Assembly (NCBI GenBank): GCA_030446465.1
Contig: JAUJNI010000002.1
Location: forward strand, 845,069 to 881,172
DNA: 36,104 bases
Source: Actinomycetota bacterium
GTDB lineage: Bacteria; Actinomycetota; CADDZG01; WHSQ01
Direction: 5' to 3'
The notes under the pieces were generated by a model, which saw nothing but the letters and a program-made list of their open reading frames with translations, did no database searches and had not been told where the DNA came from. Positions 27,455 through 34,350 of the stretch are shown in pieces; the stretch's first letter is position 1, and each line of letters opens with the position of its first letter. A program made the position numbers and the translations under genes.

Positions 27455-29527
27455 TCATTGCGGCAGCTCTCGGGTCGAGGACCTGTCGCTCGCGATCTCT
27501 ATCGCGGCGGTGTGAACGTTGGTCTTTCCCTTTTGCCGAGAGAGCAGCCGGTGCTCCGCCTGGTCCCCTTCCAACCGGAGCAGGCCGATGTTGTTCTCAC
27601 CCACCAGCATCGAGGAGTCGGGACCCTCTACCCGGACATAGCTCCGCTCCTCTCGGTATCGAGGAGGCTCGCTGATCTTGAGCTGGTCGAGGAGCTTCGG
27701 GTTAAGGAAGATCGGGGAGTCATCGTTCCACTCGTCCATGTTGGGCACGCGGAACATGAGCCTCTTCCTCAGCACCGGGGAGCAATCCGTGTCGGGTGGC
27801 TCATCCCACCCCACTCGCTCGTGCTCCTTGCTGACTATGCGGCCAAAGAGCGTGAGTGCGTGCTTGCTGAGGCCGCCGCTGTGCTTCTGGGCACTGCTGA
27901 CGAATTGCGCGGCCATCAAGACCTTGTCGCCGATCGTGAACGACGCGCGAGCGTTGAGACCGTAGTGGATGTCGCCGGAAAGAAAGATCCCGAAGGACAG
28001 CCCGAGCTCCTCGATTAACAGATGCATGAAGTCGAGGTGCCCCCTGAGGTTCGAATGCCATGCCTCGAAGTCGATCTCGTAGGGGCCCACCTTGTCTACG
28101 AGATATTTCTGTCGCCGCTCCTGCACCTCGAGTCCGAAGACCGGTACGGCCGACACGAGGATCAGCCTCCGGCCCGGAACGTGGCCGCCCTCCTTGGCCA
28201 GTGCAGCCACACGGGCGCGTCCGGTCGGGCCGAGCAAGCGCGCAGCCCCCTCAGGGCTGTCGAAGCTTCGTTGCGTGCGAGTGTCGAGGACGATCACCGG
28301 AGGGTCGGTGGGCGCCCGGAAGCTCCAGTGGTCGAACGACCACAAACGCGCCTCGAAGGGGTCGTCTCGTTGCGCTTCCCGAGCGATGTAGGCGGCGACG
28401 TCTCTCTTGAAGGATTCGTCGTATACGTCCGGGTCGTTGCCCCATCCCTGGAAGGCCCAAAAGGACGCCAGAGCGTTGCTGATAATCCGCCGGCCGGTCG
28501 GACTTGCTTGAACGCTTTCACGCCACTTCTGGGTGAGGTTCCAGTCGTCGGTCACGTCATGGTCGTCGAAGATCATGTAGGTCGGCACGTTGGCAAGCAC
28601 CCGCCGCACTGCGGGCAGGGCGGCCCTCGCGCGCTCGAGATGACCAAGCTCGTGGCCGTACTTGGAGCGCAGCCGGGCAGTCGACGTCCTCGAACCCTCA
28701 CCCCGTACCGCCTCCTGCGCGGGTGGGAAGTGCGAGGGCCAATTAAGCGAGTTCCATGCCATGAGATACATGGCGGCGAACTCGCCAAAGCTCATCAAGT
28801 GGTTCTCGGCCTTGGCCGAGGTGAACTTCCCCTTGTCCTTCACGGTCGCCGCCCGTCCGTAGATGGGGATCTCGGACAACGGTGGCGTGCCGGGAACGGA
28901 GTGCTCGTCTTGGGGACCAACTAGCTCCCTGGCGACGTCGGTCACATGACGAATAAGGGGGCCGGCGACTTCGTCTGCATAGACCTGATCTCCGGTGAGA
29001 AACAGCGCGCTCGGACGCTCGCCCGGATCAAGAGCCGTCTTAGCAATCTGCTCGTCCGCCGAGAGCATGGCGTCCTCGCCCCGTCCGTGCAGCAGGCGGC
29101 AGGAACCGTGCATCACATTCAACGCAGGAAGACTGCTCCGGATAAAAAAGGTCGGCAACGGCAGCCGCCCGTAGGTGATGCGCTGAGCACCCTTGAGCAG
29201 GCCCAGCTCGGCGAGCCCGCTACCTCGGCCTGTTTCGCCCTCTTTGGTTAGTCGGAGGTCGTAAGCGAGAAGCTCGTCGACGGGGAACTGGTCTTCGTTC
29301 GGGTGCGCCTGGATGAGGTGGACGAAGAGCCTCTTCGCGAGCTGGATCGATTCGGCGTCGCCTGAGCCGACCCGCCGCAACTCGGACCCGTCGAACCGGT
29401 AGACCTCTCCGGTGACGCGTGCCGACTCACTGGTGGCGAGCCAGATACAGACCCTGTCGCGTTCCACTCTGCGAACGATGGGCCCGGCCAGCAACATGTT
29501 CAGTGAGATGCGAGGCTTTGGGCTCAT
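27455..29527 (-). CDS. PhoD-like metallophosphatase/phosphodiesterase
   Basis: The 690-residue protein has a beta-rich N-terminal domain followed by a PhoD-type catalytic domain. Metal and active-site motifs include MHGSCR (139-144), ALFLTGDQVYADE (174-186), TYMIFDDHDVTDDWN (about 323-337) and, later, FLSGDIHYGL. PhoD-type enzymes use Fe/Ca to cleave phosphomono- or diesters. No Tat or Sec signal is visible in the N-terminus (MSPKPRISLNMLLAG), so it may be cytoplasmic or exported in an unrecognised way. About 180 bp without a gene separate it from hyuA, and 360 bp precede it. Confidence 0.85.
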   Translation of the reverse strand: MSPKPRISLNMLLAGPIVRRVERDRVCIWLATSESARVTGEVYRFDGSELRRVGSGDAESIQLAKRLFVHLIQAHPNEDQFPVDELLAYDLRLTKEGETGRGSGLAELGLLKGAQRITYGRLPLPTFFIRSSLPALNVMHGSCRLLHGRGEDAMLSADEQIAKTALDPGERPSALFLTGDQVYADEVAGPLIRHVTDVARELVGPQDEHSVPGTPPLSEIPIYGRAATVKDKGKFTSAKAENHLMSFGEFAAMYLMAWNSLNWPSHFPPAQEAVRGEGSRTSTARLRSKYGHELGHLERARAALPAVRRVLANVPTYMIFDDHDVTDDWNLTQKWRESVQASPTGRRIISNALASFWAFQGWGNDPDVYDESFKRDVAAYIAREAQRDDPFEARLWSFDHWSFRAPTDPPVIVLDTRTQRSFDSPEGAARLLGPTGRARVAALAKEGGHVPGRRLILVSAVPVFGLEVQERRQKYLVDKVGPYEIDFEAWHSNLRGHLDFMHLLIEELGLSFGIFLSGDIHYGLNARASFTIGDKVLMAAQFVSSAQKHSGGLSKHALTLFGRIVSKEHERVGWDEPPDTDCSPVLRKRLMFRVPNMDEWNDDSPIFLNPKLLDQLKISEPPRYREERSYVRVEGPDSSMLVGENNIGLLRLEGDQAEHRLLSRQKGKTNVHTAAIEIASDRSSTRELPQ

Positions 29528-29887: not shown

Positions 29888-30415
29888 TCAACTGCCTACT
29901 TGAAGCGCGAACTCTTGATGCGATGCAGTGGCAACGTAAAAACGCCAGTAGTCGGGATCAATAGCAACGCTGGGATTATGGATCCTGCCGCATCCAATCC
30001 CGAGCCGTCTTAGAAAGAACGCTACATCTTCGAGGTCCGCGCGATCCTTTTGTACAAATTGAACGTAAAAACGGGCCTCTGCCCGCCGCGGCACGCCGCC
30101 TTCCGCATCGAAATAGCCTGGTACGAACGCCCTCACTGCGTCCAGGTCAGCCAGAATCGGCGGTTGGGGCAGGTGCGATGTTTCAAGAACCCATAAGGTC
30201 CTGTTCTTGCCCTCCCGATATATCCAGCTTCTCGCTCCTAGTCGACTCACCATCAGCTGCAGCGTGGATAACCAACATAGGTTCGCCTGGCAGAAACGGA
30301 ACGTGTTATGGATTCTGCTGAGTGTGCCGTCTCGGCTGGCGCCAGCGAGGTATGCCTCCAGACTCGCCTGATCTGTGGCGTTTACCTCTTCGATGACGAC
30401 AGATTCGTCGCTCAT
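29888..30415 (-). CDS. LAGLIDADG homing endonuclease, free-standing downstream of 16S rRNA
   Basis: From the ATG at 30415 the product is 175 residues with two LAGLIDADG-type motifs, AYLAGASRDGTL (21-32) and AFVPGYFDAEGGV (96-108). Each has an acidic residue at the metal-binding end (Asp29, and Asp103/Glu105). Two motifs in one chain mean a monomeric enzyme with two half-domains; at about 175 residues it is compact. Between them lie RFCQANLCWLSTLQLMVSRLGARSW and the strand/helix FYVQFVQKDRADLEDVAFFLRRLGIG, typical of the fold. Such enzymes cut at an intron-less allele to promote intron homing. It lies 54 nt downstream of the 16S trailer stem and 171 nt from the nearest intron, not inside it. 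No Shine-Dalgarno is visible, and the local GC is lower than in neighbours. Confidence 0.85.
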   Translation of the reverse strand: MSDESVVIEEVNATDQASLEAYLAGASRDGTLSRIHNTFRFCQANLCWLSTLQLMVSRLGARSWIYREGKNRTLWVLETSHLPQPPILADLDAVRAFVPGYFDAEGGVPRRAEARFYVQFVQKDRADLEDVAFFLRRLGIGCGRIHNPSVAIDPDYWRFYVATASHQEFALQVGS

Positions 30416-30469
30416 CACACACGATAACGAGGGCCTGCGACAGAAAAGGGTGGCCCGATGGGGCCGCCG

Positions 30470-30536: not shown

Positions 30537-30586
<50 letters not shown>

Positions 30587-30928
30587 CGTGTGACTCCCCC
30601 TGTCGCCAAGGGGCACGGACTATATCTTCATCCTGGTCTCGATCACGAGTGGCGACGCTTCCTCTCTTGTCGAGTTTCTCAAGCGTCGTTTCCAGGAGCT
30701 CGGCGTGTAGTCTCTGAGGGGTCAACCTCACCAAGTGAGAATCCGGTGAAGCGACTTCCCTGCTGATTGTCCGCACCGGATGCATTTTCACCGCCGTCTT
30801 TCCGCACAAAGCTCCGCTATACGCGTGCTGTTGCGTAAAGAACGATCGGTAGCACCGGATACACGGGGTTTCCAGCAAACAGCCGAGTTTTTCACTCGCC
30901 GTTACCGGCGAGGGTCGCAACGTTGCTT
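30587..30928 (-). ncRNA. Group I self-splicing intron in 16S rRNA after E. coli position 1498 (S1498)
   Basis: The 5' exon ends GUCGU (to U1498) and the 3' exon begins AACAAGG (A1499). The intron ends in G, as group I introns do. P1: exon GUCGU pairs with intron nt 11-15 GCGAC, with the U-G wobble at the splice site. P10: intron GUU (nt 8-10) pairs with exon AAC. Core elements are a Q-like AATCAGCAGGGAAG, R-like CAGAGACTACACG (30704-30716) and S AAGATATAGTCC (30617-30628), which pair as P7 (GACTA/TAGTC). A P2 hairpin (CTCGCCG-GTAA-CGGCGAG) and a 3' hairpin (CCCC/GGGG) are also visible. No credible ORF lies inside. Confidence 0.93.
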
Positions 30929-31018
30929 ACGACTTCACCCCAATCGCAGATCCCACCTTCGACGGCTCCCTCCCAAAAGGGTTGGGCCACCGGCTTCGGG
31001 TGTTACCTACTTTCGTGG

Positions 31019-31642: not shown

Positions 31643-31910
31643 CACGTCTGTTACTTTCCCTCGCTGCAATCGCAGCAAAGTACCGACCAAGTTCCCTTGG
31701 CGGGCCCCCATTTCTGAGAGCCTCTCGTTGTTACCAACGAGGTCGGACTGTGTCATCACCCTCGTGCCGCAACACGAGGGGCCGGCGTGCAGTCTCTACG
31801 GGGTCAAAGATCACCACGATCTCGACTTCCCTCGGCGTTATCCCCAGAGGGACGTTCGCCGATACAGCCAGTTTAGGCATCAGGGTTACCCCTGAAGAGG
31901 ACCGATACCA
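31643..31910 (-). ncRNA. Group I self-splicing intron in 16S rRNA after E. coli position 788 (S788)
   Basis: The 5' exon ends ...CAGGAU (U788) and the 3' exon resumes UAGAUACCC (U789). The intron ends in G. P1: exon AGGAU pairs with intron nt 9-13 GUCCU, with a U-G wobble at the splice site. P10: intron GGUAUC (nt 2-7) pairs perfectly with exon GAUACC (791-796). R-like GTAGAGACTGCACGC (31785-31799) and S-like GATGACACAGTCC (31745-31757) pair as P7 (GACTG/CAGTC). P8 is an 8-bp hairpin (CCCTCGTG/CACGAGGG). P2 (CAGGG-GTAA-CCCTG) and a P9 hairpin (CTCGTTG-GTAA-CAACGAG) are clear. There is no ORF inside. Confidence 0.95.
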
Positions 31911-32157
31911 ATCCTGTTTGCTCCCCCAGCTTTCGCGCCTCAGCGTCAGGTAAGGCCCAGAGAACCGCCTTCGCCACCGGTGTTCCTCCTGATATCTGCG
32001 CATTTCACCGCTACACCAGGAATTCCGTTCTCCCCTACCTACCTCCAGCTATCCCGTATCGAATGGCCTCTCAGAGTTGAGCTCCGAGCTTTCACACCCG
32101 ACGTGGATAGCCGCCTACGCGCGCTTTACGCCCAATAAATCCGGACAACGCTCGCCC

Positions 32158-32190
<33 letters not shown>

Positions 32191-32322
32191 GGCCGGGGCT
32201 TCTTCTGCGGGTACCGTCACCGTGAGGCTTCGTCCCCGCTGAAAGAGGTTTACAACTCGAAAGCCGTCATCCCTCACGCGGCGTCGCTGCGTCAGGCTTT
32301 CGCCCATTGCGCAAGATTCCCT

Positions 32323-32373
<51 letters not shown>

Positions 32374-32551
32374 GCCACGCTCTCACGCCAGCTACCCGTC
32401 ATCGCCTTGGTAGGCCATTACCCCACCAACAAGCTGATAGGCCGCGGGCCGATCCCAGACCGAAAAACTTTGCCCTGCATGGCATGCGAAACGCAGGGGT
32501 CATCCGGTATTAGCAACGGTTTCCCGTTGTTATCCCGGAGTCCGGGGCACG

Positions 32552-32582
<31 letters not shown>

Positions 32583-32848
32583 TTCAGGCAGAGTGGTTAC
32601 CCACTCTGCTTTCGTCGCTCGACTTGCATGTATTAAGCACGCCGCCAGCGTTCGTCCTGAGCCAGGATCAAACTCTCCGTAGAGATTTCAATCCTTCAAC
32701 GAACGCTAACGAATCGAAGATTCGAAAGCGCTTGTGTCGGATTTATTCATAAGTACTGCCTGTCAAAGGGTTGCTCGGACACAGAGGTCCGTCTCATCTC
32801 TTTGACGAGGTCGCACTGGTCTCCGATCCACCTCTTAAGAGGCTTCTC

Positions 32849-33138: not shown

Positions 33139-34350
33139 CTATATCAGACGGACGAAACGTCTCTTTCCCACCTGCACCACGGACCCCCTCAGACGCTCGA
33201 CCTGCACCTGCTCATCCACCACGGTCTCGCCGTCGACTCGGACGCCCCCCTGGGCGATCAGCCTTCTTGCCTCCCCGCGGCTGGAGGCGAGCCCCAGATC
33301 CGACAGCACACCCGGGAGGTAGACGCTCGACCCGTCGACCGCCCCCGCGGGAAGGGTTGCCTCGGCCATCTCCTCCGGGGCTTGATGCTCCTTGAACTGG
33401 CGGTCGAAGGCGGCCTCGGCCTCCCCCGCCGCGTCGGTCCCGTGATAGAGGCCGACGACGGCACGGGCCATCGCCCGCTTGGCCCTTCCTGCCCGCGGCC
33501 CCCCGATACGGGAGGCCTCCTCCAGCTCGGCCACTCCCTCGTTGTCGAGATCGGTGGCCAGGGCGGCGTAGCGTCCGATGAGGCCGTCCGGAACGCTCAT
33601 GAGCTTGCCGAACATCTCTGTGGGCCGGTCCCGGATGCTCACATAGTTGCCGAGGGACTGAGACATCTTCTGCACTCCGTCGAGGCCCTCCAGCAGCGGC
33701 ATGGTCAGGGCGATCTGGGGACGCTGCCCGTGCGCCTGCTGCAGATCCCGGCCGACCAAAAGGTTGAACAGCTGGTCGTTGCCGCCAAGCTCCACGTCGG
33801 CCTTGACCGCGACCGAGTCGTAGGCCTGGCACAAGGGGTAGAGGAACTCGATCAGTGAGATCGGCCGCTGCTCTTTGAAGCGGGCGGCGAAGTCGTTGCG
33901 CTCGAGCATTTGGGCGACGGTGAAGTGGGACGTGAGGCCCAATATGTCTTCCAAGTCGAGGGGTTCGAGCCATTCGGAGTTGTAGCGGACCTCCAGGTGA
34001 TCCTCACGAAGGATGTCGAGCAGCATGGTCACGCAGGCCTCGGCGTTGGCGCGCACGACCTCAGGGCTCAGGCGAGGCCTGGTGATCGACCTCCCGGAGG
34101 GATCGCCGATGCGAGCGGTGAAATCCCCCACGATCAAGACCGCGGTGTGGCCCTCGTCCTGAAACTGCCTGAGCTTTCGAAGGGGCACCGCCCATCCAAG
34201 CGTCACGTCGTGTGCGGTGGGATCGAGACCGAGCTTCACTCGCAGCGGACGGCCCTCCCTCAGGCGCTCGAGCAAGTCGTCTTCGGGAACGACGTGCTCG
34301 GCGTTCCGAATAAGCCTTCTGAATTGCTGCTCGAGAGCGTCGACCGTCAT
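33139..34350 (-). CDS. tyrS: Tyrosyl-tRNA synthetase
   Basis: TyrRS attaches tyrosine to tRNA-Tyr in the cytoplasm. The 403-residue protein has a class I Rossmann domain with the HIGH-like motif in LDPTAHDVTLG (about 42-52), VLIVGDFTARIGDPSGRS, the tyrosine-pocket YPLCQAYDSVAVKADVELGGNDQLFN, and the KMSKS-like KMSQS (228-232). A C-terminal S4 RNA-binding domain (from about 345) includes ASSRGEARRLIAQGGVRVDGE. The pattern fits the TyrS type 2 (TyrZ-like) group. The ATG is at 34350, divergent from the PBP gene over 70 bp. The 16S rRNA promoter lies directly downstream. Confidence 0.96.
   Translation of the reverse strand: MTVDALEQQFRRLIRNAEHVVPEDDLLERLREGRPLRVKLGLDPTAHDVTLGWAVPLRKLRQFQDEGHTAVLIVGDFTARIGDPSGRSITRPRLSPEVVRANAEACVTMLLDILREDHLEVRYNSEWLEPLDLEDILGLTSHFTVAQMLERNDFAARFKEQRPISLIEFLYPLCQAYDSVAVKADVELGGNDQLFNLLVGRDLQQAHGQRPQIALTMPLLEGLDGVQKMSQSLGNYVSIRDRPTEMFGKLMSVPDGLIGRYAALATDLDNEGVAELEEASRIGGPRAGRAKRAMARAVVGLYHGTDAAGEAEAAFDRQFKEHQAPEEMAEATLPAGAVDGSSVYLPGVLSDLGLASSRGEARRLIAQGGVRVDGETVVDEQVQVERLRGSVVQVGKRRFVRLI

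Follow-up and report, generated by a model that had tools for sequence, protein, structure and literature searches.

The 16S rRNA gene of an uncultured Actinomycetota lineage is interrupted between E. coli positions 1498 and 1499 by a group I intron (S1498) that is structurally intact, complete and ORF-less, and a free-standing gene for a LAGLIDADG homing endonuclease lies shortly beyond the end of the same 16S gene. Judging from sequence, the intron is probably self-splicing, with its mobility perhaps supplied by the linked endonuclease, which makes the locus a good candidate for collaborative homing. To our knowledge collaborative homing is known from phages only. A stronger claim, which we put forward tentatively and consider somewhat likelier to fail than to hold, is that this would be the first pair of its kind in a cellular rRNA gene, with the linked endonuclease mobilizing an ORF-less S1498 intron from outside the mature rRNA.

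Position and structure of the S1498 intron

The intron occupies positions 30587-30928 on the minus strand of the window, by which we mean the whole stretch of 36,104 nucleotides that was analyzed. A preliminary description of this DNA had placed a 342-nt group I intron between U1498 and A1499, and its coordinates proved to be exact. The junction of the 16S exons falls at E. coli 1498/1499, both by blastn and by the AAGTCGT landmark, and the Rfam model RF00028 matches the insertion with 66.1 bits (E 8.5e-15). The P1, P10, R and S elements that had been named were all found as well. P1 (30914-30933) is made of the exon sequence GUCGU (30929-30933) and the guide GCGAC (30914-30918) and has the U-G pair at the 5' splice site, while the P10 guide GUU (30919-30921) pairs with AAC in the 3' exon (30584-30586). 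The R element (30708-30714) is the 5' strand of P7 with the guanosine-binding G-C pair, and its partner, the S element with the 3' strand of P7, is at 30617-30624. P9.0 (30588-30616) consists of GUG (30614-30616) paired with CAC (30588-30590) and encloses P9, and the terminal G of the intron is at 30587. All of these elements read on the minus strand. In the predicted fold P2, P3, P4, P6, P8 and P9 are visible by eye. The set of features by which a group I intron is recognized (the P3-P8 core, P7 with its guanosine-binding pair, the U-G pair of P1, and P9.0 with a terminal G) is present in full.

The fold of the single sequence has a z-score of -3.81, and none of 100 shuffles folded as well. 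An alignment of six S1498 homologues with their exons holds 67 pairs, and 99.5% of the cells are paired. Changes on both sides were seen in 25 of the 67 pairs against a shuffle mean of 7.3, a number that was reached in none of 500 shuffles. The pairs altered in this way include all seven of P2, a single pair of P7 (alignment columns 239 and 327, changed in locus L033), three of the five in P8, four of the seven in P9 and all three in P9.0. Given that every pair of P9.0 changes on both sides, the 3' splice site is supported. P1 is unchanged across the aligned homologues, with all exon letters present in five of the six, and as both P1 and P10 are invariant no covariation signal comes from either. 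We also looked at a 33-aa frame in the L8 loop of this intron, which had no Pfam match at E-values up to 1, and we rejected it as the relic of an endonuclease.

The free-standing endonuclease gene

The endonuclease gene, which was absent from the preliminary description, is at 29888-30415 on the minus strand, the same strand as the 16S gene. Between the 3' splice site and its start there are 171 nt, and the stretch from the 5' splice site of the intron through the stop codon of the gene measures 1,041 bp. The 175-aa product matches LAGLIDADG_3 (PF14528) with an E-value of 1.5e-12 and has 52% identity to the enzyme of the Chloroflexi S1498 intron L048 and 52-56% identity to that of genome G339. 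Both LAGLIDADG motifs and the acidic residues are invariant in the five aligned proteins, the window endonuclease included, and these together with the predicted fold are what is found in LAGLIDADG endonucleases. The fold comes from AlphaFold2 with a 5-sequence alignment, where five models ranged in pLDDT from 64.4 to 82.5 and the best one (82.5) was used. Its closest structural match is I-DmoI (TM ~0.6-0.66, best E 2.2e-6), which we take to be an archaeal LAGLIDADG endonuclease from a 23S rRNA intron; the two share 16-19% identity and belong to different rRNA sites.

In four pairwise comparisons, which are not branch-specific and in which pS is saturated, pN was 0.32-0.41 against a pS of 0.83-0.88. 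The protein stops ~20 residues before its intron-borne relatives, which share SWHP near their C-termini, and with such a short C-terminus the free-standing endonuclease could be decaying. An open LAGLIDADG_3 gene sits in the L8 loop of the S1498 introns of L048, L049, L080 and G339; the S1498 intron of G016 has a broken endonuclease, and G018 has the start of one followed by the end of the contig. Homologues of the window endonuclease were found in 6 of 396 Actinomycetota genomes including its own, of which the G006 match is weak and lies within a 1,357-aa frame. The endonuclease tree has no starred branch and does not tell whether the endonuclease moved out of the intron or into it.

A terminator-like hairpin (30452-30465, minus strand) is located between the 16S and the endonuclease gene, though the call is weak with 2 found in the region against 0.9 expected in shuffles. 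Hairpins that look alike by eye and lead into T runs also come after the 16S genes of G002, G003 and G005. A sigma-70 scan for a promoter of the endonuclease gene found none, and we count this against collaborative homing, as we do the hairpin that separates the gene from the 16S.

Linkage of endonuclease genes to ORF-less introns

The surroundings of other 16S genes were compared by a uniform six-frame scan with LAGLIDADG_3 and LAGLIDADG_1 profiles, in which at most 1500 nt past each of 18 16S ends were covered. This took the place of an earlier motif scan, which had missed the genes of G002 and G003. A downstream endonuclease gene was seen at three of the 18 ends, namely in the window genome, in G002 (398 nt available) and in G003. 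Because the window and G003 proteins contributed to the profiles, matches to these two were bound to occur, and G002 is the independent case. G002 has the same order of intron and endonuclease gene, with 50% identity over 78 aa up to the point where the contig ends within the gene. The gene directly downstream of the 16S in G003 (L033:505-993) is a LAGLIDADG_1 gene and not of the window's family.

All three cases are among the seven loci with an ORF-less S1498 intron, an association that was spotted post hoc in a small sample. At the remaining ORF-less loci (G032, G071 and the CPR loci L043 and L081) the profile scan found no downstream endonuclease in the sequence covered, which was 1500 nt at most. 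Nor did it find one at the five S1498 introns that carry an endonuclease or its relic (G016, G339, L048, L049, L080), at the four empty 1498 sites (G001, G005, G006 and the second copy of G016) or at the two unscorable loci, these being G009, which is probably intron-bearing with just three intron-like nt seen, and G021, which is cut at the junction.

Relationships and distribution of the S1498 introns

The same 16S gene has a second group I intron, S788, of 268 nt (31643-31910, minus strand; RF00028 50.2 bits), which has a short P5. The preliminary description had suggested that the two introns are not duplicates, and this agrees with a core identity of 54% and with a test of the two as a sister pair (p-AU 0.0012), on which we rejected a local duplication of S788 as the source of S1498. 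Each of the two window introns has 81% core identity to the intron at the same site in G002. The S788 core groups with the S1498 introns of CPR and Chloroflexi, away from the S1498 intron of its own gene. Two S1498 introns with a short P5, those of Chloroflexi L048 and CPR L080, fall on one side of a branch (99/99) together with three S788 rows and an intron from a CPR 23S gene, although the shared absence of P5 columns could also produce this grouping. The endonuclease of L049, a long-P5 CPR intron, has 53% identity to that of L048 and 46% to that of L080. As the enzymes of the two short-P5 introns thus resemble that of a long-P5 intron, the ribozyme and the endonuclease may have separate histories. 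A single clade of 11 S1498 rows, L081 excluded, is not rejected (p-AU 0.097), yet it is absent from the recovered tree. This tree holds 31 of 39 rows, themselves chosen from 74 matches, and its LSU labels are approximate. The rows dropped were five unplaced introns without rRNA flanks, L1931h_G047, S1081_G018 and CPR L081, the last with a P7-P3 extension and a place far from the other rows in a FastTree tree. The L081 S1498 intron is 252 nt long and by eye of another structural type, with the extension between P7 and P3, so different ribozymes may have occupied S1498.

Matches to RF00028 were found in 22 of 61 genomes including the host's own, and above the cut-off in 13. Genomes with S1498 introns were also counted by an exact site pattern, with the seed genomes included. 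This gave 5 of the 24 genomes of the host class (own included), to which G003 is added as a further member with its intron on a broken contig, and 7 of the 396 in the phylum Actinomycetota, or at least nine once G003 and G339 are added. The pattern was present in 3 of 286 genomes in the phylum of a Moranbacteria MAG and in 1 of 201 in the phylum of a Chloroflexi MAG. All of these are lower bounds, as the pattern missed both the G339 intron, which was found through its endonuclease, and the broken contig of G003. Among contig records there were 12 pattern matches, five outside 16S and seven in 16S at 1498 (four Actinomycetota, as judged from title or kinship, two CPR and one Chloroflexi), with one of the seven, L047, cut off ~19 nt into the intron. 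The insertion between 1498 and 1499 was confirmed also in L040-L043, L048 and L049.

On the 16S tree the intron-bearing and empty genomes of the host family are intermixed, a pattern that suggests more than one gain or loss. A second 16S locus in G016 (L058/L097, C17) has an empty 1498 site and 89% identity over 221 nt to the intron-bearing copy, and it may be contamination or one of two divergent operons. In the 16S of G018 there is a group I-like insertion near E. coli 1081-1083 (L036:868-1118; 27.9 bits with R1).

Proposed collaborative homing and its alternatives

The preliminary description had considered 1498 a possible new insertion site, which we reject given two published reports. Nawrocki, Jones and Eddy (2018) list three group I introns of archaea at SSU/1498, the sole previously unobserved position among their introns, and a 2024 survey of the CPR in J Bacteriol describes 16S insertions at 1498 that encode LAGLIDADG proteins (PMC6125680; PMC11270868). 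It had named S1498 being a common bacterial site already as grounds for refuting its proposal; this largely holds in that the site is known from bacteria, but in the genomes sampled here it is not common. The archaeal introns were assigned to IB4 and the Nanohaloarchaeota copy spans 293 nt, so that their lengths reach down to the size of an intron without an ORF (PMC6125680). They share the site and the group I class with the window intron; they differ in having archaeal hosts instead of an Actinomycetota host, and IB4 is assigned to the archaeal copies only. The CPR survey lists proteins of the LAGLIDADG_2 family at 1498 and of the LAGLIDADG_3 family at site 16IS10, which we infer to be 1498 (PMC11270868). 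The CPR insertions share the site with the window intron, and the CPR loci L043, L049 and L080 resemble it. The survey's hosts are CPR with endonucleases inside the insertions, whereas the window has an Actinomycetota host and a gene outside the rRNA (PMC11270868). In our search of the open-access literature we came across no paper that deals with S1498 in Actinomycetota or with an endonuclease encoded separately next to the rRNA gene of a cellular organism. With the site already known, the intron alone is a modest extension of its range from CPR and archaea to Actinomycetota, and the endonuclease gene adjoining the 16S is the more interesting part.

Collaborative homing has been described for F-CphI with the psbA intron of cyanophage S-PM2 and for T3/T7-like phages and ICP1 (PMC6083498; PMC10448857). 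The phage systems are like the window locus in that a conserved gene is interrupted by an intron and the endonuclease is encoded separately alongside, but they involve protein-coding genes and enzymes with an Endo VII motif or of the T5orf172 type, in contrast to a cellular 16S gene and a LAGLIDADG enzyme. Additionally, the target of F-CphI is proven (PMC6083498), whereas that of the window endonuclease would follow from its homology to the enzymes of S1498 introns.

In the mechanism that we propose, the intron would self-splice from the pre-16S RNA by the two-step guanosine reaction and restore the 1498/1499 junction. The downstream endonuclease would cleave 16S alleles that lack the intron, at 1498 or close to it, and the repair would then copy the intron and the endonuclease gene together. 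Since the intron occupies the target of the endonuclease, it would protect its own genome from cleavage. The arrangement expected of such a pair, an ORF-less intron with an adjacent free-standing endonuclease gene, is what the window locus has. If the proposal is true, the relatives in which the intron at this site still contains an enzyme of this family would help to show both states of a transition, the origin of which is unexplained in phages. With this family both inside the intron (G339, CPR, Chloroflexi) and in an outside gene (window genome, G002), the question becomes testable.

Several observations count against collaborative homing: the C-terminal shortening of the endonuclease, the different LAGLIDADG family of the neighbor in G003, and the lack of a neighbor at four of the seven ORF-less S1498 introns and also at G009. 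The first three would also suit an ordinary ageing S1498 intron, which self-splices and has lost its endonuclease, with the downstream gene being a relic or an independently mobile endonuclease near the 16S. We give this explanation a chance not far short of even. It is helped by the mixture of intron-bearing and empty genomes in the family and by the endonuclease relic in the G016 intron, but an ageing intron does not readily account for 175 open codons with pN well below pS and the catalytic residues kept, or for homologous genes in the same place beside the same intron in two genera.

Other explanations bear on the intron itself. Related introns and endonucleases in CPR and Chloroflexi MAGs could point to a recent horizontal gain of the S1498 intron of CPR, as opposed to a lineage long resident in actinobacteria. 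We consider this unlikely as the nearest cores to that of the window intron are the S1498 cores of the six other Actinomycetota compared (72-81% identity), while four CPR copies have 54-64% and the Chloroflexi copy has 61%, though the intron tree is too weak for dating any transfer. It is less probable still that the intron is not spliced at all and that the 16S rRNA either tolerates it or is fragmented, as with intervening sequences whose excision is not followed by ligation. Everett et al. in 1999 reportedly described an unspliced group I intron in a bacterial 23S rRNA, which we count in favor of this explanation; however, here P1, P10, P7, P9.0 and the terminal G are intact, the structure covaries, and the insertion is in the sole detected 16S gene at 5 nt from A1493, which we take to be a decoding base.

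The host genome and its rRNA genes

The host genome measures 2.76 Mb in 6 contigs and is 95.7% complete. A single match was obtained for the 16S and likewise for the 23S, and the two genes, which share a 1.05-Mb contig (C6), are unlinked at ~230 kb apart. The 16S exons are all on the minus strand, at 31911-32683 (E. coli 1-788), 30929-31642 (E. coli 789-1498, by blastn) and 30543-30586 (E. coli 1499-1542), the last with 44 nt that carry the anti-Shine-Dalgarno sequence. The minus-strand ORFs on either side, at 27455-29527 and 33139-34350, presumably encode a PhoD-type phosphatase and a tyrosyl-tRNA synthetase, as named by eye. The S1498 insertion lies within what we take to be the usual 1492R primer site. 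PCR surveys may overlook bacteria with rRNA introns, as the CPR survey warns (PMC11270868).

The 23S gene of the host (L008, C6:641041-646186) has five further group I introns, at sites read by eye as L1923, L1931, L2500, L2593 and L2604, so that the rRNA genes of this genome hold seven altogether. Two of the 23S exons between introns measure just ~8 and ~11 nt, and a LAGLIDADG_1 ORF sits in the first of the five 23S introns.
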